From a virus, in the IMG/VR virus record IMGVR_UViG_3300006802_000755, positions 1 through 20,732 of that record: 20,732 nucleotides of DNA; one strand, 5' to 3'. Below, in pieces: positions 1-17,812 of this stretch. Every line of letters begins with the position of its first letter. Within the stretch, counting starts at the first letter, position 1. Below the pieces are notes generated by a model. It worked only from the letters and a program-made list of their open reading frames with translations, did no database searches and was not told the DNA's origin. The position numbers and the translations under genes are program-made.

Positions 1-3000
1 AGAGAAGCCCAATCATATACAGGTGGTAACTTAGATTTAATAGCCGGTGGGGCTTTTCTTGGCGGTATCGCCGGTCGGTTTGGTATAGAGCCTGCACTAG
101 CTCGTACCGTAGAGCAAAACGTAGCGCGTAAACTACTGGGGCGTGTTGTGCGGGGGGCTGCAGAAGAAGCGCTGCCTGAAGCAGCACAAGCGGGGCAGGA
201 ACAACTCGCTCAGAATATTGCCCTTCAAAGAGAGGGTTTTGACGTACCAACAGGACGCGGTGTTGCAGGGCAGGCTGCATTTGAAGGGCTTGCCGGGGCG
301 GGTATTGGTGCAGGTGTAGGGGCTATAAGGCCGGGGCGCGTAGAGGAACTCCCACCGGAGCCGATGCCGGAGCCGGAACCGGAACCGACACAAGAGGAAA
401 TACGGCGGCTAACATATAGCGGGGACTTAGACCCAAATACGCTATATGCTTCGGAGTCAGAGGACAGCGCGAGAGCTAGAGAGCGCGTAGCAGGGGCTGA
501 TGAATACCTTGCTGCTGTAAATGAACCGCCTATTACCCCCGAAGAATTTAGAAACATACCTCCTGATCTGTTTGCAGCGGACGGTACTGCCGATAGCGTT
601 GCTGAGTTTGTCCTGACACGTAGGAAGAGCGGGGCGAGAGCATCAGACGTAGGAGCACCAGACGTAACAGCACCGAGCCCTTCCCCGGAGGAGGCTCTTT
701 ACGAAGGTCTTACGGGGAATGCACCGCCAGTAGGCCGCCCGCGTCCGCCACCTAAGAAAGCCCCTGCTGCTTGGACGGAAGAAGATGAAACCGCTCTTAG
801 AGAGGCCAGAACTCTAAGAGATACAAACATAGAGGCCCAAGGTAGAGCTGAGTCTGAGGAAGCGTACCAAAACCGCTTTATGGCTCAAGAAGAAGCCCAG
901 CGTAGTGCTAGAGAAACCGTTACAGAGTTAGAAGCTCGTAAGGAAGCCGCAGCAGCCGCAGCCGCCAGACCATCTACGTTAGACTTGCAGCCGTCACAAG
1001 CAAGACCAAGAGCGCGTGTGCGCGGGCAAACTATAGAGCAAGAGCTTTCTACGTATATTAAAGCGCTGGGCGGCATACGTATAACTAGGGACCCTTCAGG
1101 TGGCCTTACTCCAGAAGGCCAAGAACTGCAGGCTCTTAAAGATAAAACCAAGAAACAAGGTGTGCTACGACCGAAGTCAGATAAGGGTATGTCTCCCGAG
1201 GATGCTCTCCGCCGACTGAAGGATGATAGGTGGTTATCGGAAGACGCCGACCTCAATGACATGTATGACCTTATAGATAGGTCCCTCAATGTCGAAGAAG
1301 GAGTGTACCACCCCGAAAGCTTCAAGGTTGCCGAGGGGGATAGGGGGCGTGGACTCATACCAGAGGAAGAAGTTGATAGGGACTTGGATGAGGTTCTGGC
1401 TACGCTGCCAGAAACAGGGCGGGCTGTTACCCCGGCAGAGAGAGCCACACTTCGCACTAAATATGTAGAGCGTGGCTACGACGCGGAAAGCGCCGTAGCT
1501 GAAATGTTAGAAGCACGGGGGCGGGCGGAAGAAACAGTAGCGGAAAGAAAGCCCACTGCAGAGGCTCCTACACCTGCGGCCCCTGCCGGTATGACTAGGC
1601 TGTACAGGATGGAAAGTACACCAGAACAGGTAGCTTCGGGACGTAATATCGCTGACTGGATCAAACAATCTCCTGTCTATCAAAATGCGGAGAAGGCGGG
1701 GGGGCGCTGGTTCACAGACGATTTGGATGAGATTAACTGGTACCGCCAACATGAATACCCTGAAGGGCGTATGGTATATGTCGATGTACCAACCGCTGAA
1801 GCTGAGAAATATAGAGTCAGCAACATTCCATTGAAACCCGGTGATAAAGACGTAGCTGACAATCCAAGAGCTTATTCCCGCCGCCCCGACAAAGAATTTT
1901 TTATACCCTCTGCGCTAGCCGCAGCGGCCAAACCCACACCTGCAGCTACACCCACACCTGAAGCTCCACCCACACTCGACGCTGCTGCAAACGAGCTAGC
2001 TGCTGCGCGTAACATAGCAAGCAACCTAGGCATTAAAAACGCCAACAGTATGGATAGGGAGCAACTCAATAACGCTATAAAAAACGCTAGAAGAAAAATA
2101 GATAGTAAAAATGAAGCGGCGCAAAAGTCTCAAGAAACGGATTATAAAGCGGTAGTAAATGCCGGTGGTGCGGGGCTGGGAAGAGGCACAAGAAAATACC
2201 GCAACTCTGCATCGGCACTTCCGTTCTTCCAAAGTATTTTAGGGGGGATGAAGTCCCCTACGCTAAGGGCAGTTCTATACTCCCTTACAACAAGCGACAT
2301 AGTGCGGTGGTTTAGAGGCAAACTACGAGACATAACGGTAGTTGATACGTTTATGAAGCGTATGGACAGCACTCGTAATAGGCTACTTAAAGAAATCGCA
2401 GCCGTGAGTCCGGACTGGGCTTCGTTGATTAGAACAGCTAAGAAGGATGCAGACGCTTTAGCAGACCTTTTTTACGACGCCACCATAAATAATATCGACC
2501 CTGAAGTTCGTGTGGTAAACCCTACGGCTACCGAACGGCGTGTGTATGCGCAGTACGACAACCTAGCTAAAAATGCAAAAGCGCTAGCTATATTCAAAAG
2601 TGTTAAGGAGCAAATGAATAGCGCTATCGACAAGCGTATAAAGCATATGCAAGACACTCTTAGAGCAGGTGGGTTTGACCAAGCGCAAATAAAGGCGGCT
2701 ACTGAGTTTCTAGAAATAATTAAAAAAGAACGAACTAGACTAAAGTTCTATTTCCCGCTGATGCGTTTTGGCCGCTACTGGGTTAGCTACAATAAAGGGA
2801 AAGACTTAGAGTTCCGTATGTTTGAGTCGTGGGCTGAGCGCGAAAGGTTTATGAAGTGGCGTACAGCGGAGGCTAAAGCTAACAACGAAGTCTTAGAAGA
2901 AACTGGGCGAGGGGACGACCCCAGCCAGTTGAGAGACTTGTTTGGTACCAATGTAGTCGATCAGAACTCGGCTATAGCTAAAGTTATGAAGGTACTAAAC

Positions 3001-5037
3001 GCCTCGGGTAGAAACCCGAATATAGATGAGCTTAAGGCGGATGTATTCCAGCTATACTTACAAACATTACCAGACGGTGATCTTAGAAAGCACCTTAAGC
3101 CAAGAAAAAATGTGCGGGGTTATAGCACTGACGCGCTTAGGACTTTTGTATCTCATCAGGTGAGCGTCTCAAATAATCTAGCTGCTCTTGAATACAAGTC
3201 CAAAGTCAGGGGTCACATACAGGGTATGTACGACCAGATAAGGGAGGAGTATGCCGGGACACCGGATATGGAGAAACTTCTCATAGTCGCAGGAGAAATG
3301 GCGGGTAGGGTAGAAAGAGCTTTCAGTCCTGCCGAGCTAGATGGTGTTGAGCAGTTTTTTGATAAGTTCGCTCGCTGGGGGAACCAGGCATCATTCTATT
3401 ACTTCCTAACTTCTGCAAGGACTGCGTTGATACAGTTAACGCAGGTCCCCATTGTGACGGCCCCTTTGCTGGCTAAAGAGTTTAAGATTTCTACAGCGCA
3501 GGCTAACGCTCTGCTGGCTAAACGAGTGTCTGGGAAGCTATACGATCTAGAGACGCACCTGCGTAGAGCGCCTAAAGAACTTAGAAAGGCTATAGAGGCT
3601 GCTTACAAAGAAGGAGACGATACGGGGGCGTTCGATACGGGGTACATATCCGATCTTACATATATGAAGCGAACCCACACTACGACATCTGAGTCTAGCT
3701 CATACGAGCGGTTAGGTAGGGGCGGTCAGTTTGCGCTTAAAGTTCTTCGGGGCGGGTTTCAGTACACCGAAAGCAGTTCAAGAAAACTCGCGTATATGAC
3801 TGCCTTTGAACTTGCGTATAAGCGTCTAATAGACGGAGGGGTGGACGCCGATACCGCTCAGGTACAAGCTCAAGACACTGCGGAATCTGTAATGCTTGAG
3901 TCCTTGTTTGATTATAGGCAGTGGAATAAGCCCAGACTTATGACTGCTACAGGGGCCAAGCTGGGTACGCAATTCTTGACGTATCCGTTACAGATGTATT
4001 CGTTGCTTGCACGTAACTTTTATAACCAACTAAAACGGTCTGGGTTATCTAAAGAAGAACGTAGAGCCGCCCGTAGTACGCTGGCCGGTGTTTTGCTGAC
4101 GACTGGGCTGTTCGGTGGTGTAACTGCTTTGCCGCTCTTCAGTGTAGCCCTAGGCGTGCTGGATATGCTAAGCGATGCTACTGAGGATGATGACGACCCA
4201 AGAGACCCGCTCAACCATCGTAGTTGGGAGCTTTGGTTTCGTAACGAGTGGCTCCCCCAAACCTTCGGTACAGGTAGCGGCATAGCTAGAACCTTTGGTC
4301 TCGGCGAAGATCAGAGTCGGTTGTTGGAACGCGCGGTTTTATATGGGCCTGTGTCGGCCATAACAGGGCTCGATATTTCTTCGTCCGTGTCGCTGGATAA
4401 CATCTTCTTTGGTCGGTTTGACGTAGGTTCGGTGGATAAAGAAGGTCTGGAAAACTTAGTATACGCAAATGCACTTGGGCCTTTCGGGGGTATGCTGGCT
4501 AATTGGACTACCGCTGCTTCGGACTTTAGCGACGGGGAATACCTGAGAGGATTTGAAAACATACTGCCTTCCGCCCTTAAACAACCGCTACGCGCCTATA
4601 GATACGGAACCGAGGGCAACCTGACCCGTCGGGGGGATACGGTGCGGAGCCGTGAGTTCTACACTGTTGGGCGGCTAGCAACCCAAGTCCTAGGCTTTAC
4701 TCCGACAGAAGTAAAAGAGAAGTACGATGTCGATGAGTTGGTGTACACCATTACAGAAGAAGCAAATAGCCGTAAATATGACGCTCTGGACGCAATAAAC
4801 AAAGCGCTCGAAGATTACGGGCAGGACAGCCCAGAGTTCGACAGAGCTATACAGGAAGCCCGTGCGTATTCACAGGCCAACCCTAACGACCCTATAACCT
4901 ACGAGAGTATACAGACTTCTGTTAACGGGCGGATACGAAACCGTGTTCTGGCAGAGATGGGCGGCGGCAGGTACCAAGCCCCGCGATGGTTGCCCCGTAC
5001 AATGGCTGAGACAGACCGCTACAAAGAAAGAAAATAA
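1..5037 (+). CDS. Giant phage polyvalent protein with PLxRFG motif (5' partial)
   Basis: The frame is open from base 1 to the TAA at 5035-5037, so the gene begins outside the window; at least 1678 codons are present. Codons below count from base 1. Glycine-rich hydrophobic patches lie near codons 13-28 and 90-110. Acidic and Ala/Pro-rich linkers follow. An ART-like segment is at about 531-640. The signature PLMRFG is at 919-924, followed by a conserved-looking region (LTSARTALIQLTQVP, then KLGTQFLTYPLQMYSLLARN). A hydrophobic stretch near 1359-1390 is followed by an acidic run (DATEDDDDPRDP), resembling C-terminal large-polyvalent-protein domains. Proteins of this type are known as very large phage proteins thought to be packaged and injected with the DNA. 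Role as an ejected internal virion protein is inference. It is the only rightward gene and converges on the replication block. Confidence 0.85.
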   Translation, partial: REAQSYTGGNLDLIAGGAFLGGIAGRFGIEPALARTVEQNVARKLLGRVVRGAAEEALPEAAQAGQEQLAQNIALQREGFDVPTGRGVAGQAAFEGLAGAGIGAGVGAIRPGRVEELPPEPMPEPEPEPTQEEIRRLTYSGDLDPNTLYASESEDSARARERVAGADEYLAAVNEPPITPEEFRNIPPDLFAADGTADSVAEFVLTRRKSGARASDVGAPDVTAPSPSPEEALYEGLTGNAPPVGRPRPPPKKAPAAWTEEDETALREARTLRDTNIEAQGRAESEEAYQNRFMAQEEAQRSARETVTELEARKEAAAAAAARPSTLDLQPSQARPRARVRGQTIEQELSTYIKALGGIRITRDPSGGLTPEGQELQALKDKTKKQGVLRPKSDKGMSPEDALRRLKDDRWLSEDADLNDMYDLIDRSLNVEEGVYHPESFKVAEGDRGRGLIPEEEVDRDLDEVLATLPETGRAVTPAERATLRTKYVERGYDAESAVAEMLEARGRAEETVAERKPTAEAPTPAAPAGMTRLYRMESTPEQVASGRNIADWIKQSPVYQNAEKAGGRWFTDDLDEINWYRQHEYPEGRMVYVDVPTAEAEKYRVSNIPLKPGDKDVADNPRAYSRRPDKEFFIPSALAAAAKPTPAATPTPEAPPTLDAAANELAAARNIASNLGIKNANSMDREQLNNAIKNARRKIDSKNEAAQKSQETDYKAVVNAGGAGLGRGTRKYRNSASALPFFQSILGGMKSPTLRAVLYSLTTSDIVRWFRGKLRDITVVDTFMKRMDSTRNRLLKEIAAVSPDWASLIRTAKKDADALADLFYDATINNIDPEVRVVNPTATERRVYAQYDNLAKNAKALAIFKSVKEQMNSAIDKRIKHMQDTLRAGGFDQAQIKAATEFLEIIKKERTRLKFYFPLMRFGRYWVSYNKGKDLEFRMFESWAERERFMKWRTAEAKANNEVLEETGRGDDPSQLRDLFGTNVVDQNSAIAKVMKVLNASGRNPNIDELKADVFQLYLQTLPDGDLRKHLKPRKNVRGYSTDALRTFVSHQVSVSNNLAALEYKSKVRGHIQGMYDQIREEYAGTPDMEKLLIVAGEMAGRVERAFSPAELDGVEQFFDKFARWGNQASFYYFLTSARTALIQLTQVPIVTAPLLAKEFKISTAQANALLAKRVSGKLYDLETHLRRAPKELRKAIEAAYKEGDDTGAFDTGYISDLTYMKRTHTTTSESSSYERLGRGGQFALKVLRGGFQYTESSSRKLAYMTAFELAYKRLIDGGVDADTAQVQAQDTAESVMLESLFDYRQWNKPRLMTATGAKLGTQFLTYPLQMYSLLARNFYNQLKRSGLSKEERRAARSTLAGVLLTTGLFGGVTALPLFSVALGVLDMLSDATEDDDDPRDPLNHRSWELWFRNEWLPQTFGTGSGIARTFGLGEDQSRLLERAVLYGPVSAITGLDISSSVSLDNIFFGRFDVGSVDKEGLENLVYANALGPFGGMLANWTTAASDFSDGEYLRGFENILPSALKQPLRAYRYGTEGNLTRRGDTVRSREFYTVGRLATQVLGFTPTEVKEKYDVDELVYTITEEANSRKYDALDAINKALEDYGQDSPEFDRAIQEARAYSQANPNDPITYESIQTSVNGRIRNRVLAEMGGGRYQAPRWLPRTMAETDRYKERK
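1933..1986 (+). repeat. 18-base tandem repeat in a Pro/Ala linker
   Basis: Three consecutive 18-base units (starting 1933, 1951 and 1969), each beginning CCCACAC, encode PTPAAT, PTPEAP and PTLDAA. The units degenerate from left to right. They lie just after the ART-like segment of the giant protein and look like an in-frame flexible linker made by unit duplication. Confidence 0.7.
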
Positions 5038-11482: not shown

Positions 11483-12145
11483 CTAGCTCTTGTTGAACTC
11501 ACAACTGGTAACTGGGCAGAACTTGCACAACGGGCCACTCACGGGGTTCCACACTCCGCTTTCGTGCGCCACAGCTAGCCGCTCCAGTTCGTCGCTAAAC
11601 ACCCCCATATAACTCAGCATGTCTTCCCTCTTGTGAATTTTCTTTATCAGATCGTTTGTAACCACAAACGCTAAAGCTGATTTAAGCTCTTTAAGTTTTG
11701 GATAGTGGACAAACGTAGCCGCTGCCATCAAGTCTAACTGTTTCGTGTCGGCGTAGCGTGTGTTTCGGCCCGTTTTATAGTCTATGATGTACCCAGTCTC
11801 TCCGTTTTCTATAAGTAGATCGACGATACCACGATACCAAACGTCTCTGTCGAAGAACCCGCAGGGCTCTAAATTCTCTCCGGCGCGCCGCACCCCCAGT
11901 TTCAGTTCGCAGTGTTTCTCGCCGTCTAGTTTTTTGAGCGCGTCAATGAACCTTGTTATGAACCCAAACTTTTCCGGTACGGGGGTGTCGTTTTTGACGT
12001 TAAGCTCAGCCGCCTTATGGACCTCGTTGCCGTATAAGATAGCTGCCGTCTGCGCGTCTTTAACGTCTCGTGCCACCTTCAAGTGATAATACTTTTTTGG
12101 GCACTGATCGAAGGTCTTTATACTGCTGTAACTCCAAGCCGCCAT
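11483..12145 (-). CDS. Cas4/RecB-like PD-(D/E)XK nuclease with Fe-S cysteines, 220 aa
   Basis: The core motifs are HK (H43), GIVDLL (D109), IIDYKTG (D122, K124) and a QL motif (Q136), the standard RecB-nuclease layout. One cysteine near the N terminus (C15 in TFDQCPKKYY) and three near the C terminus (C207, C210, C215 in CKFCPVTSC) match the iron-sulphur cluster arrangement of Cas4 and AddB nucleases. It probably degrades or trims single-stranded DNA ends. No CRISPR or Cas1 is present, so it is a phage recombination nuclease rather than an adaptation factor. The ATG at 12145 has GGAG seven bases upstream. Confidence 0.88.
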   Translation of the reverse strand: MAAWSYSSIKTFDQCPKKYYHLKVARDVKDAQTAAILYGNEVHKAAELNVKNDTPVPEKFGFITRFIDALKKLDGEKHCELKLGVRRAGENLEPCGFFDRDVWYRGIVDLLIENGETGYIIDYKTGRNTRYADTKQLDLMAAATFVHYPKLKELKSALAFVVTNDLIKKIHKREDMLSYMGVFSDELERLAVAHESGVWNPVSGPLCKFCPVTSCEFNKS

Positions 12146-12445: not shown

Positions 12446-12811
12446 TTAGCTCCGGGTGAGCGCCTTAATCCGTGCCCCGGCGGCTCCCGGTTCAGGTCGG
12501 TCGTCGATGATGTAGTCACGAGTCACTCCATCTATAATTATACCAAGACAGGCTCTTGCGTGCGCCGCATGAGATATCCCACTTTCGGGATCAACATCTT
12601 CACCATCTACGAACGCAGCTATATGTCTCAGCGCTGCGTTGAGGTACACCATCATAGAGACGCTGGTGTCCCGCCAGTTATAGGCCCCGTATTTCTCAGC
12701 CCCCAACTCAAACGCAGCTGCCTCTTCAACTAACGCAGCTTGCGGGATGAGAGCGAGAGATGGTTTCTTTGTCCCGAATGAACTTTTTGGGTTGCTGTCT
12801 GGGGCTGTCAT
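12446..12811 (-). CDS. dATP/dGTP diphosphohydrolase-type protein (N-terminal domain family), 121 aa
   Basis: All-helical pattern AALVEEAAAFELGAEKYG with YNWR (about 25-47), then ALRHIAAFVDGEDVDPESGI followed by SHAAHARACLG (about 60-90). The E-x-G-A-x-K-Y-G...N-W-R and R-H-x-x-A-x-x-x-G-E-x-x-D-x-E-S-G-x-x-H signatures match the phage dATP/dGTP diphosphohydrolase N-terminal family (formerly DUF5664, distantly MazG-like). Such enzymes remove pyrophosphate from dNTPs, and some act in Z-genome phages, though many are found without them. The ATG at 12811 overlaps the GcrA stop as ATGA. Confidence 0.8.
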   Translation of the reverse strand: MTAPDSNPKSSFGTKKPSLALIPQAALVEEAAAFELGAEKYGAYNWRDTSVSMMVYLNAALRHIAAFVDGEDVDPESGISHAAHARACLGIIIDGVTRDYIIDDRPEPGAAGARIKALTRS

Positions 12812-13266
12812 TTTTCCACCGGCACGTGTGTTTTGTTGTGGTGCTCTACGCAATAAGAGCTGCCTTCTTTAATTGACCTACCGCAGAAACGCATGGCGTT
12901 GTCACTTGGAAACCCGTGTATGTATCTGCACCCATTGTTGCTCAGAACGCTGAACGCCTCGTCAATGGCCAGTAATGTTGCTTCGTCAACCTCTACAAAT
13001 GTTTCCGCATCTAACTGCGGTTCTGTTTTTACTTTGGGTTTAGGTTTGACTTGTGGTTGCGGCCTTTGTGCGCTCTTTATTTGCGGGAATACAACCACGT
13101 TTTCAAACCCAGTTACGACACCTTTCTGCAGTCCGAGCCGATGAGCTTTACCTACGACGGCGTTCTTACCACAACCTAACTCGCGCCCTATTTCAGCCGC
13201 AGACAGCTCCCCATCGCTCCATAGTTGCGTCAAACGTATGATTTTGTCCTGTGTCCAAAAACTCAT
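12808..13266 (-). CDS. gcrA: GcrA-family transcription regulator, 152 aa
   Basis: The N-terminal helix-turn-helix (FWTQDKIIRLTQLWSDGELS, then AAEIGRELGCGKNAVVGKAH and RLGL) and the C-terminal C113...FCGR (C128)...YCVEHH (C139, H142) are both diagnostic of GcrA. In Caulobacter, GcrA is a σ70-associated cell-cycle activator that favours GANTC sites methylated by CcrM. The family is centred on alphaproteobacteria and their phages. The linker is Pro/Lys-rich (QPQVKPKPKVKTEPQ). A phage copy could redirect host σ70 or time phage genes to the host cell cycle; that is inference. The ATG at 13266 overlaps the glycosyltransferase stop as ATGA. Confidence 0.9.
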   Translation of the reverse strand: MSFWTQDKIIRLTQLWSDGELSAAEIGRELGCGKNAVVGKAHRLGLQKGVVTGFENVVVFPQIKSAQRPQPQVKPKPKVKTEPQLDAETFVEVDEATLLAIDEAFSVLSNNGCRYIHGFPSDNAMRFCGRSIKEGSSYCVEHHNKTHVPVEK

Positions 13267-14045
13267 TTCACATTCCCTCCCGAACGCAAAATGTTTCCTT
13301 CGTAAACGTAAGTGCCCACATGCTTCAAATGAATAAACGGGTTAGCAAATATTTTGCCGCCGTGTTTCGCCCACAGCTCACAAAAATGGTAGTCCTCCGA
13401 CAGCAGACAACCGTCCGCGTCAATGCTGGTAGCGAAGAACTCGTGAGTTAAGGGTTTCACGTACTCGTCCGTATTTGGAACTTTTGCCCCCGACACTCTG
13501 TACGTTGGCACATGCGGTATCAGCTTCTCAAATACCTTACGCTTGATTAGCATAAACCCGGTGCCCCCGTGTCGGACTGTTACCAACCCCTCTTCGTTGG
13601 TCTCTGCATCGTCAACGCCAATAAGATTAAGAACGAACGAACCGCCAAAATCTCGGAGCTTTGTCCGTCCCTCTTTCGCAGCACGTTCAACTTGCTCCCA
13701 ATCCAATTCTTTCTTTGGGTATATACCGCAAACGATATCCTTATCCGCAGACACCAAAGCTTTTATAGCATCATGCCCGAACGCTATGTCTGCATCGACA
13801 AACATAAGGTAGTCGTGACCCGCTTCGAGAAATAACCTCACTAGCTCGTTCCGCGCACGAGTAATCAAGCTCTCATTAGTTATCTGCGCCCAAAAAACAT
13901 TTATCCCGTCGGCGCGTAACGTAGCCATAGATTGCAGCAGTCCTAATACATACGCACCTGTACACATACCGCCGTACATCGGCGTGGCAATTAAGAGGCT
14001 CTTGGGTTTAGGCTCGGAAACCGACACTTTAATATTATCATCCAC
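13263..14045 (-). CDS. GT-A fold glycosyltransferase-like protein, 260 aa
   Basis: GTG start at 14045, with GAGGAG six bases upstream. After an N-terminal β strand (SLLIATPMYGG) it has LITRARNELVRLFLEAGHDY, then LMFVDADIAF with a DxD motif (D84, D86), and RHGGTGFMLIKRKVFEKL. Near the end it has EDYHFCELWAKHGGKIF, followed by HLKHVGTYVYEG. These are the classic features of small phage GT-A (GT2-like) nucleotide-sugar transferases. Substrate is unknown: DNA bases, host surface sugars or virion protein are all possible. Its partner, a methyltransferase, ends just upstream. Confidence 0.85.
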   Translation of the reverse strand: MDDNIKVSVSEPKPKSLLIATPMYGGMCTGAYVLGLLQSMATLRADGINVFWAQITNESLITRARNELVRLFLEAGHDYLMFVDADIAFGHDAIKALVSADKDIVCGIYPKKELDWEQVERAAKEGRTKLRDFGGSFVLNLIGVDDAETNEEGLVTVRHGGTGFMLIKRKVFEKLIPHVPTYRVSGAKVPNTDEYVKPLTHEFFATSIDADGCLLSEDYHFCELWAKHGGKIFANPFIHLKHVGTYVYEGNILRSGGNVK

Positions 14046-14047
14046 GG

Positions 14048-14641
14048 TTAACTCCTCTTCTGAAGTGCAGCTTGGTAGCCCACATGCACCAACGATGCTC
14101 GCTCTGCCATTATATTTGTAAAGCTATCTATAGCGAGCTTAGGGCGATGTAACACGTCGCGGGGATTGCCCCATAGGTAGTCATCGAACACCATAATCCC
14201 ACTCACTTTAAGTAACGGCCACGCCATGCACGCATCTTGTAGCACCTGGTCCGCTGTATGCGCTCCGTCGATATAAATGAAATCGTATGGTGGAACTCTG
14301 TCGTATATAAGTTGCGCCAGCGCGTCCGTGGAGGTCTTCTTTATCTTGAAATAGGTGTGCCGCGTGTTCCTTATCGCCAACTGCATATTTTGGGAGAAGC
14401 GTTCTTCTGTGCCGCGCATATCGTCGGTAGTATGCTCTTCGCCACCGCCCCAAGTGTCCACGCAGTCTACGTGACCGCCCTTCTCGTCCATCATGTTTTC
14501 GACGATCCAAGCCGCACTTCGACCTTCGTAACTTCCAATCTCCAGAAAGCGGTTCCGAGCGGGTAGGAGCGGTATAAGTTGCTTCCATACATCTGGTGCC
14601 CAACTGAACCAATCTTTTGTAAACTCATATGCAGGCTGCAT
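14048..14641 (-). CDS. SAM-dependent class I methyltransferase, 197 aa
   Basis: Start chosen at ATG 14641 because GGGAG/GGAGAG lies a few bases upstream; a TTG at 14674 in the same frame lacks such support. Motif I is FLEIGSYEGRSAAWI (about 32-46), the acidic post-motif is VDCVDTWGGG, and a later YDFIYIDGAHTADQVLQD plus GIMVFDDYLWG complete the Rossmann pattern. The IDGAHT signature matches the small-molecule or sugar O-methyltransferase group Methyltransf_24 more than DNA methylases (no DPPY or NPPY motif). It overlaps the DnaA-domain gene by 17 bases and lies directly upstream of the glycosyltransferase. Confidence 0.85.
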   Translation of the reverse strand: MQPAYEFTKDWFSWAPDVWKQLIPLLPARNRFLEIGSYEGRSAAWIVENMMDEKGGHVDCVDTWGGGEEHTTDDMRGTEERFSQNMQLAIRNTRHTYFKIKKTSTDALAQLIYDRVPPYDFIYIDGAHTADQVLQDACMAWPLLKVSGIMVFDDYLWGNPRDVLHRPKLAIDSFTNIMAERASLVHVGYQAALQKRS

Positions 14642-14939
14642 TTTGCTCTCCCAACTGTAACAAAGCGTGTTCAATAGTATCTATATCTTTCTGTAGACCT
14701 TCGTACCGCTGCACGTATGTCGGTATGTTGCGAGCAGCATGGATAACTGTAGTGTGGTCTCTGTTAAACGCAGCCCCAATTTGAGGGAGGCTTTTATCGG
14801 TTAGCTTTCTTGCAAGAAACATAGCCACCATACGTGGGCGAGATAATCTTCTTTTCTTATCGTTTCCGATAAGTTCTTCGACCGTTAACCCGTAATATAT
14901 ACTTGTAGCTAGTTGTACATCTCTTATTCGCAAACCCAC
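14625..14939 (-). CDS. Stand-alone DnaA domain IV DNA-binding protein, 104 aa
   Basis: The sequence contains LSRPRMVAMFLARKLTDKSL, followed by PQIGAAFNRDHTTVIHAARN (through about residue 71). The RDHTTVIHA core (60-68) is the diagnostic DnaA-box recognition motif of domain IV. The ATPase domain III and the helicase-loading domain I are missing. It could bind DnaA boxes in the phage or host and either recruit, block or compete with host DnaA. The GTG at 14939 directly follows the previous stop, with GAGGAG at a good distance. A perfect TTATNCACA box lies in the gap at 17796-17804. Confidence 0.9.
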   Translation of the reverse strand: MGLRIRDVQLATSIYYGLTVEELIGNDKKRRLSRPRMVAMFLARKLTDKSLPQIGAAFNRDHTTVIHAARNIPTYVQRYEGLQKDIDTIEHALLQLGEQNAACI

Positions 14940-15209
14940 TTACTGCTCCTCATTTCCATTTATAGTTATAGAAGATTCACCGCCCATAACCTTAATGCCG
15001 TCTGAACCGGTGGTAACAGTATCGACATTCGGGGATGCCAATAGCTCAGCGTAAAGCTTCTGGGCTTCGTAAATAACGTCGGTAAGGAAATCTAACTGCT
15101 GTAGCGTCGATACCCCCTTACTTCCACCATCCCTCATAAACGCCGATAGCGACCTACCGTCGATGCGCGCCTCACCGTCTGAGTCGCTCCACACAAACGT
15201 AAGTTTCAT
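14940..15209 (-). CDS. Small phage protein, 89 aa, function unknown
   Basis: ATG at 15209 is preferred: it lies two bases after the DNA polymerase stop, with a GGGGG tract upstream. ATG at 15227, within the polymerase end, has a better-spaced GGAG and would add six residues. The protein starts MKLTFVWSDSDGEARIDGRS, has a helical middle (TLQQLDFLTDVIYEAQKLYA) and an acidic, Gly/Asp-rich end. No cysteines, membrane segment or catalytic motif are seen and no family is recognised. Its place between DNA polymerase and the DnaA domain suggests a replication accessory. Confidence 0.65.
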   Translation of the reverse strand: MKLTFVWSDSDGEARIDGRSLSAFMRDGGSKGVSTLQQLDFLTDVIYEAQKLYAELLASPNVDTVTTGSDGIKVMGGESSITINGNEEQ

Positions 15210-15210
15210 A

Positions 15211-17052
15211 TTATTTACAACCCCCATAGCTTGCTCCAATACCAGCCTCACAGTTCAACGGCAGTCCTTTCGCCCACGCCGGAGCTTCGCGCATACACTG
15301 CATAACAAACTCCTTGGCCTCTTCCGCTTCCGCCTCGGGCACCACACAACAAACGGCATCGTGTACCGTCATAACGACCTTGTAGCGGGAAGCGATCTTC
15401 AACATCTGTTCGCCAATGATGATACGAGCTAGGGCCTGACATAAATTTTCAATGACCTTACCTCCATATATCTTCGTAGCTGTAACAGAAGCTCCGCGCT
15501 TAGTGTCGTACACTAGCTCATAACCCTCGGTTCTTAAGTTGGGGTAACGTATGCTAAGGCCATTCGGAAGCCCTAGCGCTTCTCTATCCGGATCAGCCAC
15601 AATGAGGCCCCCCGTCCCCATCGTGAAGACTAAGTTATCTGCGTTAGTAGCTGGGGGTTTACGACGAATTAGAAAATCCAGTGCTTTATTGGCTATATTC
15701 CACAACTTGGGAATACTGGCATATGAACTCCGATAAGCCTCTACGATGGAGGCAGCTTCTCCTTCTGACACATCCACACCAAAAGAAGATAGCTGGTCGC
15801 GAAACCGAACAGCGCCCATCCCATATCCGCAACCTAGGATCGTCGTCTTACCGACAAACCTTTCATCTTTGTTTATGTCTTCCTCTGGTTTGTTGTAAAT
15901 TTTTGAGGCCATTATTTTGTAGACATCATCGCCATTTGAAAACGCCTTAACGAGGTCTTTCTGATCGGCAAGCCACGCTAGAGTACGCGCTTCGATCTGA
16001 CTGCTATCGCTATCAATAACTACATGGCCCGGAGGAGCTACTAGCGCGTCCTTAAGCACAGAGCCTCGCGGTAAGTTTTGCAAGTTCACCTTATCGTCGC
16101 CACCCCAGCGGCCTGTGTGCGCGGCGTAGTAGCGGAGCGGGATTGGTATGGGGCCACGCTTCCCTATTTCTATGAACCTAGCGGTTCGTGTTTCCTCAAT
16201 CGTGCTCTTTATCTTCAGCCTTGCGCTCACAAGCGTTTGCACTTTCAGATCATCGTGCTCAAGCAGCTCTTTGAAACCCTCATCGGTCTTGGAGAAAGCG
16301 AAAGTTTCCTTACCTGTGGTCTTACTCGTCTTCACGGGTGGCGTGATGTTTAGCTTGCGCAACGCAGCCGCAAACTTAGGATTACTCATTAACTCTTCTT
16401 TTGCTATCCCGACCTCTTCCAAAGTCTTGGCTTTGCTCTCCACGATAGATTGGAGATGCGTTTCAAGTAGCGCGGAGTCAATCTCTAGTTCTGGCTCTGA
16501 AAACATACGTATGGTGAGATCAATTAAACGAAGCTCGGTCAAAGGCACCAGCGGGGTAAGCTTTTTTAGCAGCAGGTAAGTTAGCTCAACATCCTGCTTA
16601 CAATACGCACCGTACTTGGCTAGCTCTTCCTTCGAAAAGCTAAGCCGCTTTTTCCCGATAGCGTCATGCACCTCCGTGCCTTTCTCACCCAGCTCGTAGT
16701 GTGTAGCCAGCGATGCTAGTGCAGCGCTTATCTCCGTACCGTGAACCGCGCGTGACATAGACATGGTATCTAGTATGCGCTTAGGGCGGATACCGAAACA
16801 CCAGTTAAGGATAGCCATATCGAACGCTGCGTTGTGAGCGAGTGCTGCGCTCTCCCCCCAGTTGAACTGCGCTAGGAACTCCCGAGTACGCTTGTGCGTT
16901 CCTGAAAACCACACAGTAGGCTCGTCGTCACGCTTGACCCCAACCCCAACAACCTCAAACCGCCTGTCACGTATGTAGGCTTCAGTAGTTTGTTTTTTGA
17001 GATTGAAGTCACGCGAGTAGTGCGTCTCGAAATCAATTGTTAGCAGTTCCAA
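15211..17052 (-). CDS. Family A DNA polymerase with 3'-5' exonuclease, 613 aa
   Basis: Exonuclease motifs: IDFET (D7, E9), AHNAAFDMA (D78) and YCKQDVELT (Y150, D154). Polymerase motif A is VIDSDSSQIEARTLAWL (D347, E354). The O helix runs R398-x3-K402-x3-L406-x3-Y410, so the residue equivalent to E. coli Phe762 is leucine. Motif C is MTVHD (H564, D565). No 5' nuclease domain is present, which fits phage replicative PolA. Sequence style is close to polymerases of many tailed phages, including Z-genome ones, but nothing here shows Z specificity. The start is TTG at 17052 with AAGGAG six bases upstream, a rare start for a polymerase that would lower its translation. Confidence 0.95.
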   Translation of the reverse strand: MELLTIDFETHYSRDFNLKKQTTEAYIRDRRFEVVGVGVKRDDEPTVWFSGTHKRTREFLAQFNWGESAALAHNAAFDMAILNWCFGIRPKRILDTMSMSRAVHGTEISAALASLATHYELGEKGTEVHDAIGKKRLSFSKEELAKYGAYCKQDVELTYLLLKKLTPLVPLTELRLIDLTIRMFSEPELEIDSALLETHLQSIVESKAKTLEEVGIAKEELMSNPKFAAALRKLNITPPVKTSKTTGKETFAFSKTDEGFKELLEHDDLKVQTLVSARLKIKSTIEETRTARFIEIGKRGPIPIPLRYYAAHTGRWGGDDKVNLQNLPRGSVLKDALVAPPGHVVIDSDSSQIEARTLAWLADQKDLVKAFSNGDDVYKIMASKIYNKPEEDINKDERFVGKTTILGCGYGMGAVRFRDQLSSFGVDVSEGEAASIVEAYRSSYASIPKLWNIANKALDFLIRRKPPATNADNLVFTMGTGGLIVADPDREALGLPNGLSIRYPNLRTEGYELVYDTKRGASVTATKIYGGKVIENLCQALARIIIGEQMLKIASRYKVVMTVHDAVCCVVPEAEAEEAKEFVMQCMREAPAWAKGLPLNCEAGIGASYGGCK

Positions 17053-17671: not shown

Positions 17672-17687
17672 GATTATCTCCCTCTGC

Positions 17688-17704
17688 TTGTGACACTGTC
17701 ACAA
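17688..17704. promoter_or_regulatory. Perfect 17-base palindrome, candidate operator
   Basis: TTGTGACA, a central C and TGTCACAA form a perfect inverted repeat with 8-base arms. It lies 16 bases upstream of the VRR-NUC start codon, in the gap just after the terminator. This is the typical place and shape for a repressor or activator dimer site. No second copy was noticed in the window. The regulator is unknown; the HTH protein at 8245-8475 and GcrA are candidates. Confidence 0.65.
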
Positions 17705-17717
17705 ATAGGATTTGCGG

Positions 17718-17723
17718 TGTCAA
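17718..17723 (-). promoter_or_regulatory. Possible -35 hexamer TTGACA upstream of VRR-NUC
   Basis: A perfect TTGACA reads leftward just after the terminator T tract, upstream of the palindrome and the VRR-NUC gene. The hexamer at the usual spacing, GACAGT, is not a convincing σ70 -10 box, so either an activator is needed or the match is chance. If it is a promoter, the palindrome would overlap the -10 region and could block it. Confidence 0.35.
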
Positions 17724-17724
17724 T

Positions 17725-17757
17725 AAAAAACCCCCCGGTGAGTGGGACACCGGGGGG
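17725..17757 (-). terminator. Strong intrinsic terminator for the rightmost leftward operon
   Basis: A 10-bp GC-rich stem (17731-17740 with 17748-17757) and a 7-base loop are followed leftward by TTTTTT (17725-17730). This is a textbook Rho-independent terminator for genes 17813-20732. A weak second stem-loop lies just before it in the transcript. Confidence 0.88.
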
Positions 17758-17765
17758 CCAAGTTA

Positions 17766-17794
17766 GGCTGGGAAGAAGGAGAAAAAACCCAGCC
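17766..17794 (-). other. Second stem-loop just before the terminator
   Basis: A 7-bp stem (GGCTGGG 17766-17772 with CCCAGCC 17788-17794) encloses a 15-base loop whose leftward sequence begins TTTTTT. It precedes the main terminator in the leftward transcript. It could be a back-up terminator element, an RNA-processing structure or a protein-binding site; it is too weak and oddly tailed to call a terminator on its own. Confidence 0.45.
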
Positions 17795-17795
17795 G

Positions 17796-17804
17796 TTATG
17801 CACA
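17796..17804 (+). promoter_or_regulatory. Perfect-consensus DnaA box
   Basis: TTATGCACA matches the TTATNCACA consensus exactly and lies in the non-coding gap. The phage encodes a stand-alone DnaA domain IV (14625-14939) that could bind it. One such match somewhere in a window of this size is expected by chance, but one in a 141-base gap is less expected. Confidence 0.4.
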
Positions 17805-17812
17805 GTCGTAAG

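Follow-up and report, generated by a model that had tools for sequence, protein, structure and literature searches.

What might a phage do with the DNA-binding part of the replication initiator DnaA when it encodes nothing else of that protein? The question is raised by a small gene in a stretch of viral DNA of 20,732 nucleotides (IMG/VR record IMGVR_UViG_3300006802_000755; hereafter the window). In an earlier note, written from the letters of the sequence, an open reading frame at 14625-14939 had been read as a stand-alone DnaA domain IV, which could act as a competitor of host DnaA or as a phage origin binder. The reading frame was recovered at exactly these coordinates; its strand, which had not been stated, is minus:

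14625-14939, minus strand: stand-alone DnaA domain IV protein (dnaA-IV), 104 aa (PF08299, AlphaFold2, Foldseek, Shine-Dalgarno sequence, stop-start junction)

The GTG start codon lies immediately 3′ of the TAA that ends the preceding gene, an AGGAG Shine-Dalgarno-like sequence is located shortly 5′ of it, and the TGA stop overlaps the likely ATG (about 14641) of a methyltransferase gene. Junctions like these fit a tightly packed transcription unit of a phage.

The domain assignment had been made dependent on a match to the Pfam profile Bac_DnaA_C (PF08299). The 104-aa protein matched it with 84.2 bits (E = 6e-24; curated cut-off, 31.5 bits), residues 6-72 aligning with positions 2-69 of the 69 in the profile. 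PF08299 was the only domain found in the Pfam scan of the protein, and 104 aa are too few for the AAA+ domain III, in agreement with the claimed lack of an ATPase or helicase-loading domain. The claimed motif RDHTTVIHA is present at residues 60-68. Among sequences of solved structures, those matching the protein were exclusively DnaA, across domain IV. The AlphaFold2 model had a mean pLDDT of 95.7, and its best matches in the PDB by Foldseek were two complexes with box DNA, one of the M. tuberculosis DnaA-DBD (3pvp; TM 0.85-0.94) and one of E. coli DnaA domain IV (1j1v; TM 0.84/0.92). The protein is DnaA domain IV alone, and a chance occurrence of the motif is ruled out. Its score against the DnaA replication initiator family TIGR00362 was 87 bits (cut-off, 343.9), confined to positions 347-436 of 437, which places it outside that family; searches of PHROGs and PADLOC gave no match. 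Because domain III is missing, the protein can neither bind ATP nor form an initiator filament, melt DNA, or load a helicase.

In E. coli DnaA, bases are contacted by residues 399, 423, 432-435, and 438-439 (PMC5043019); the helix comprising residues 434-451 reads TnCACA, and Arg399 reads TTA from the minor groove (PMC5742627). The corresponding positions of the phage protein, assigned by alignment to 1j1v, are encoded by two segments of the gene:

14733-14831, minus strand: segment for residues 37-69, with P52 (E. coli 423), R60-D61-H62-T63 (432-435), and I66-H67 (438-439) (1j1v alignment, PMC5043019, PMC5742627)
14847-14858, minus strand: basic loop K28 K29 R30 R31, with K28 aligned to E. 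coli R399, the minor-groove reader of TTA

The contact set of the phage protein is K28, P52, RDHT, I66, and H67. P423, RDHT 432-435, and H439 are unchanged, and the only exchanges, R to K at 399 and L to I at 438, are both conservative; according to the alignment, M. tuberculosis DnaA likewise has K at position 399. Since the box-reading residues are kept, DnaA-box binding can be soundly inferred, and the protein is expected to bind DnaA-box-like sites (duplex forms, TTATCCACA and TTATGCACA).

Two contigs, G001 (60,295 bp) and G002 (33,778 bp), were near-identical to the window phage. G001 is probably near complete because its ends share 82 bp inside a repeat array. Between the window and G001, dnaA-IV differs by three and gcrA by five non-synonymous changes, with no synonymous change in either, while six neighbour genes together carry 14 non-synonymous and 19 synonymous changes (Fisher p = 0.004, post hoc and from small counts). 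The genes surrounding dnaA-IV are the following:

15211-17052, minus strand: PolA, a family A DNA polymerase of 613 aa, bounding a variable zone on the left (PF00476, 1.9e-35; PF01612, 2e-9)
14940-15251, minus strand: small gene between polA and dnaA-IV, 103 aa (74 aa in the G001 ORF call), no family match
14048-14674, minus strand: Methyltransf_24/O-methyltransferase-like protein, likely ATG at 14641 (Pfam)
13263-14045, minus strand: glycosyltransferase-like protein
12808-13266, minus strand: GcrA homologue (cell-cycle sigma-70 cofactor family), in the variable zone (PF07750, 85 bits)
12446-12853, minus strand: protein with the N-terminal domain of a dATP/dGTP diphosphohydrolase, in the variable zone (PF18909, 1e-27)
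11483-12145, minus strand: PD-(D/E)XK exonuclease, bounding the variable zone on the right (PF12705, synteny)

Both PolA (PF00476/PF01612) and GcrA (PF07750) had been named as neighbours in the earlier note, and both were confirmed by Pfam. The phage was also said to possess its own PolA and PrimPol; the former holds (PF00476), whereas the presumed PrimPol (985 aa) proved to be primase-helicase-like, with DUF927 and PHROG primase matches. The GcrA homologue scored 71 bits against NCBIfam GcrA, which is under the equivalog cut-off; judging from its presence, the host of the phage presumably belongs to the Alphaproteobacteria. The methyltransferase is probably not a DNA methyltransferase because Pfam places it with Methyltransf_24/O-methyltransferase-like proteins; the sole PHROG it matched carries a DNA methyltransferase label. 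Elsewhere in the window, at 148-5037, an ORF of 1629 aa (1782 aa in the G001 ORF call) contains Large polyvalent protein associated domain 39 (PF18858), and its product is likely a virion polyvalent protein.

Whether dnaA-IV belongs to the replication machinery of this phage group can be judged from related genomes. Window PolA has 423 relatives in IMG/VR, and gene order was compared, based on simple ORF calls, for the best 78 other contigs of these 423. The conserved order, to the contig limits, is vwa, g83, g284, VRR, g121, polA, the variable zone, exo, hnh, SNF2-type helicase, g138, ssb293, hth80, and primase; g83 and g121 were undetected in some of the 78. The interval between polA and exo ranges from 0.4 to 4.5 kb and, in 48 zones, comprises 276 ORFs in 108 gene clusters; it is a hypervariable cargo zone. 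In the window, it contains dnaA-IV, the genes for the methyltransferase and the glycosyltransferase, gcrA, and the dGTPase-like gene. In relatives, scanning the zone genes for known families revealed SutA-RBD, GcrA, Mor, and HTH proteins. Lone RNA polymerase alpha-CTD proteins were also observed there (L038:9062-9460 and L102:11974-12411; PF03118, 60.5 and 46.5 bits, respectively). GcrA was above the cut-off in two of 45 PolA relatives tested, PF08299 in none of them; eight of the 45 are contigs of 60-64 kb, and the others are partial. Since none of the 45 has PF08299, dnaA-IV is accessory and not the core initiator, and the relatives appear to replicate without it. Because the gene lies in a swappable accessory block, action on DnaA sites of the host is more likely than a role in starting phage replication.

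If the protein served the phage's own DNA, DnaA boxes might be expected on it. The window contains one exact TTATNCACA, at 17796-17804, compared with 1.3 expected by chance for TTWTNCACA. It is located in the following region:

17672-17812, minus strand: intergenic region of 141 bp 5′ of the VRR-polA-dnaA-IV run, with the exact TTATNCACA, a terminator-like hairpin, a palindrome, and a promoter-like site

Boxes with at most one mismatch numbered 28 in the window versus about 14 expected. The resulting ratio, 2.11, was the highest among the polA-region sequences compared, in which relatives without the gene reached up to 1.79; the rest of G001, with 1.12, was not enriched. Sites in the window were most densely grouped inside the helicase gene, where four with one mismatch fall within 400 bp; this group was borderline (p about 0.05 versus shuffles; codon-preserving and dinucleotide shuffles served as null models for the box scans). 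In the 60 kb of G001, two exact boxes were present and no cluster was clearly above chance. The same held for other phages: 62 loci with stand-alone DnaA domain IV among the matches listed (see below), covering 595 kb, contained 13 exact boxes versus 8.8 expected and 252 boxes with at most one mismatch versus 284 expected, and no clustering beyond chance was found across them. As the positive control, bacterial dnaA loci were subjected to the same test, and four of seven had box clusters. Scanning the window, its 60-kb relative, and the 62 listed loci thus uncovered no more than a weak excess, dispersed over the window, and an origin marked by DnaA boxes was set aside as a reading. Because the 62 listed loci show neither enrichment nor clustering while the controls do cluster, a phage origin built of consensus boxes is unlikely. 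Because of the one-mismatch excess and the borderline group in the helicase gene, the phage genome may itself carry binding sites. The protein may also have non-consensus sites as its targets.

Several other DNA elements were observed. Tandem 15-bp iterons, CACACGGATAATCAG (G001 iteron, CTGATTATCCGTGTG), are present at L013:18765-18840 (38765-38840 of G001), where genes are few and the cumulative GC skew is on its low side; they were found in no other IMG/VR genome, and the region is a possible phage origin. As a target of the DnaA-IV protein they were rejected, since they match the TTATCC half of the box and not the CACA half, which is read by the conserved helix. A seven-copy 15-bp direct repeat, TAGGTCCGCTCCCTG, lies near the early region (L013:15074-15197). 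The palindrome TTGTGACACTGTCACAA at 17688-17704 of the window overlaps the promoter-like site and belongs to a 17-bp type, TTGTGACAxTGTCACAA, that occurs six times in G001 (at 28794, 33500, 35445, 36226, 36790, and 38750), four copies being exact and several lying just 5′ of gene starts. This palindrome was absent from the related phage loci checked, and a phage regulator probably uses it as its operator.

The earlier note had implied that a stand-alone DnaA domain IV is a rarity. This is wrong because such proteins are common in phages and already annotated there. A scan of IMG/VR with a codon pattern for RDHTTVxHA, which is biased toward the intact motif, gave at least 120 stretches, of which 80 readable loci were kept. 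At least 62 among these 80 listed loci encode a stand-alone DnaA domain IV, defined as an ORF shorter than 300 aa that has its 5′ end closed and lacks an upstream Walker A motif; one of them is the window phage's own relative. Eight of the remaining loci among the matches listed were longer or had a Walker motif, and the rest were interrupted by the end of the locus. In a viral structure library, at least 56 matches were obtained at E ≤ 0.001, many of them labelled 'Chromosomal replication initiator, DnaA C-terminal'. The lone DnaA domain IV of phages is thus a large, previously annotated kind of protein. DNA reading appears to be conserved across the group, because 57 of 61 stand-alone phage proteins among the matches listed have R at position 399, which the search pattern does not include. 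Some 'phage' database matches (e.g., MT835859) were set aside as apparent bacterial contamination because they encode full-length DnaA; two records in the list of DnaA-matching phages carry Salmonella names. Seven distant phage proteins that were aligned were too diverse to yield a search pattern.

The tree was poorly resolved. Several stand-alone copies fell in the vicinity of S. meliloti DnaA, others branched elsewhere, and the window copy could not be placed; this scattered grouping suggests several origins of the stand-alone copies. Best identity of the dnaA-IV protein was to DnaA of Lentisphaerae (53% over 68 columns). That the gene was recently captured from the dnaA of an alphaproteobacterial host is disfavoured by this identity and by the lack of the residue preceding RDH, an insertion whose absence makes the gene unlike a recent alphaproteobacterial copy.

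In a raw listing, neighbours of stand-alone DnaA-IV elsewhere included DUF1376, primosomal, and replication-initiation proteins, DNA methylases, GapR, and GcrA, and lambda-O-like and DnaD-like replication proteins were also among them. In ctOK67 and RHph_N28_2, the stand-alone domain adjoins primosomal or replication-initiation genes. Such neighbours point to a replication role in those other phages. Among 50 records with DnaA-C-like genes, GcrA was above the cut-off in seven and DUF1376 was present in eight (seven above the cut-off). A limited search of open-access papers returned no functional study on DnaA domain IV proteins encoded by phages.

The explanation that we prefer, and consider a roughly even call, is that the lone domain IV occupies DnaA boxes of the host and competes with host DnaA, next to GcrA in the cargo zone. 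The company of the gene in that zone, GcrA here and stand-alone alpha-CTD and SutA-RBD in relatives, likewise speaks for a target in the host. The protein would be produced during infection, and the isolated domain, a helix-turn-helix of monomer size, would bind DnaA-box-like 9-mers of the TTATNCACA type. It would sit on boxes of the host chromosome, either at oriC or at DnaA-controlled promoters, and compete with full-length host DnaA there, so that replication initiation or the DnaA regulon of the host would be blocked or reshaped; the GcrA encoded in the zone would act in parallel on the host's cell-cycle programme. If, instead, domain IV were a transcription regulator of the phage, it would bind one or a few phage sites like a small HTH regulator, for example the exact box 5′ of its own gene run. 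The position of the window's sole exact TTATNCACA within that intergenic region and the one-mismatch excess fit such a role, which is nevertheless unlikely: one exact box is chance level, its place is upstream of the terminator-like hairpin and at a distance from the palindromic site where the gene run starts, and relatives retain the run without DnaA-IV.

A split initiator, in which domain IV marks the phage origin and another phage protein loads the helicase, is suggested by the DUF1376 (eight of the 50 records), primosomal, lambda-O-like, and DnaD-like neighbours in other phages. For the window phage, we regard it as quite improbable. An origin initiator should be present wherever the replication module is, and the domain was found in none of the 45 PolA relatives, despite their common gene order and conserved polA-region replication genes; furthermore, no box cluster clearly exceeded chance near dnaA-IV, in the 60-kb relative, or at the 62 listed loci, and the CACACGGATAATCAG iterons of G001 lack the CACA half. 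The origin-binder alternative of the earlier note is, therefore, disfavoured. The gene might also be a neutral or decaying passenger of horizontal transfer with little function, as its accessory nature, its confinement to the window lineage among the relatives tested, and the three non-synonymous and zero synonymous changes relative to G001 would permit. This is the least probable of these alternatives: the ORF is intact in three contigs, with a Shine-Dalgarno sequence and translational coupling, every contact residue is kept or conservatively exchanged, and phages widely carry stand-alone copies in which position 399 is conserved.

Competition with host DnaA, if it occurs, would constitute a natural, sequence-defined off-switch for bacterial replication initiation, and the polA-exonuclease zone would be a source of further lone-domain decoys of host regulators. 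A broader idea is speculative and, in our view, rather doubtful: in this group of 60-kb phages, the interval might be dedicated to the exchange of lone-domain decoys (DnaA-IV, alpha-CTD, SutA-like, and GcrA), detached parts of host master regulators that bind DNA or RNA polymerase and displace the complete host protein from its target; stand-alone DnaA-IV would then be a widespread means by which phages silence or rewire initiation in the host. If, in other phages, the proteins are origin markers, the adjoining DUF1376 or primosomal genes would have in them the origin-recognition half that they lack.

Compared with cellular DnaA (1j1v and 3pvp), the phage protein shares the sequence family, the fold (TM 0.84-0.94), and the base-contact residues, but it is devoid of domains I-III and has K where E. 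coli has R399; it also lacks the single-residue insertion that precedes RDH in DnaA of E. coli, B. subtilis, and S. meliloti. The NCBIfam PRK06030-type families (NF004688 and NF004686) likewise consist of short Bac_DnaA_C-type proteins; with 20 and 19 bits, under the respective cut-offs of 136 and 148, the dnaA-IV protein is not a member of them. The 'DnaA C-terminal' proteins of Caudoviricetes, such as BFVD A0A6J5LT00, Cellulophaga phage phi19:3 gp13, Octadecabacter phage DB2 gp52, and that of Rhizobium phage RHph_N28_2, are also phage-encoded and have the same single domain, usually in 90-250 aa; identity to the window protein is low (about 20-50%). Unlike these counterparts, the window copy resides in the polA-exonuclease cargo zone of a group of 60-kb phages otherwise without the domain. 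A precedent for a phage homologue of a host cell-cycle regulator is the GcrA encoded by the Caulobacter phage phiCbK, which was proposed to alter the replicative state of the host (PMC3556154). In the available portion of that paper, phiCbK carries GcrA rather than DnaA and no phage DnaA domain is reported, whereas the window phage encodes a homologue of GcrA and a DnaA domain IV in the same zone.
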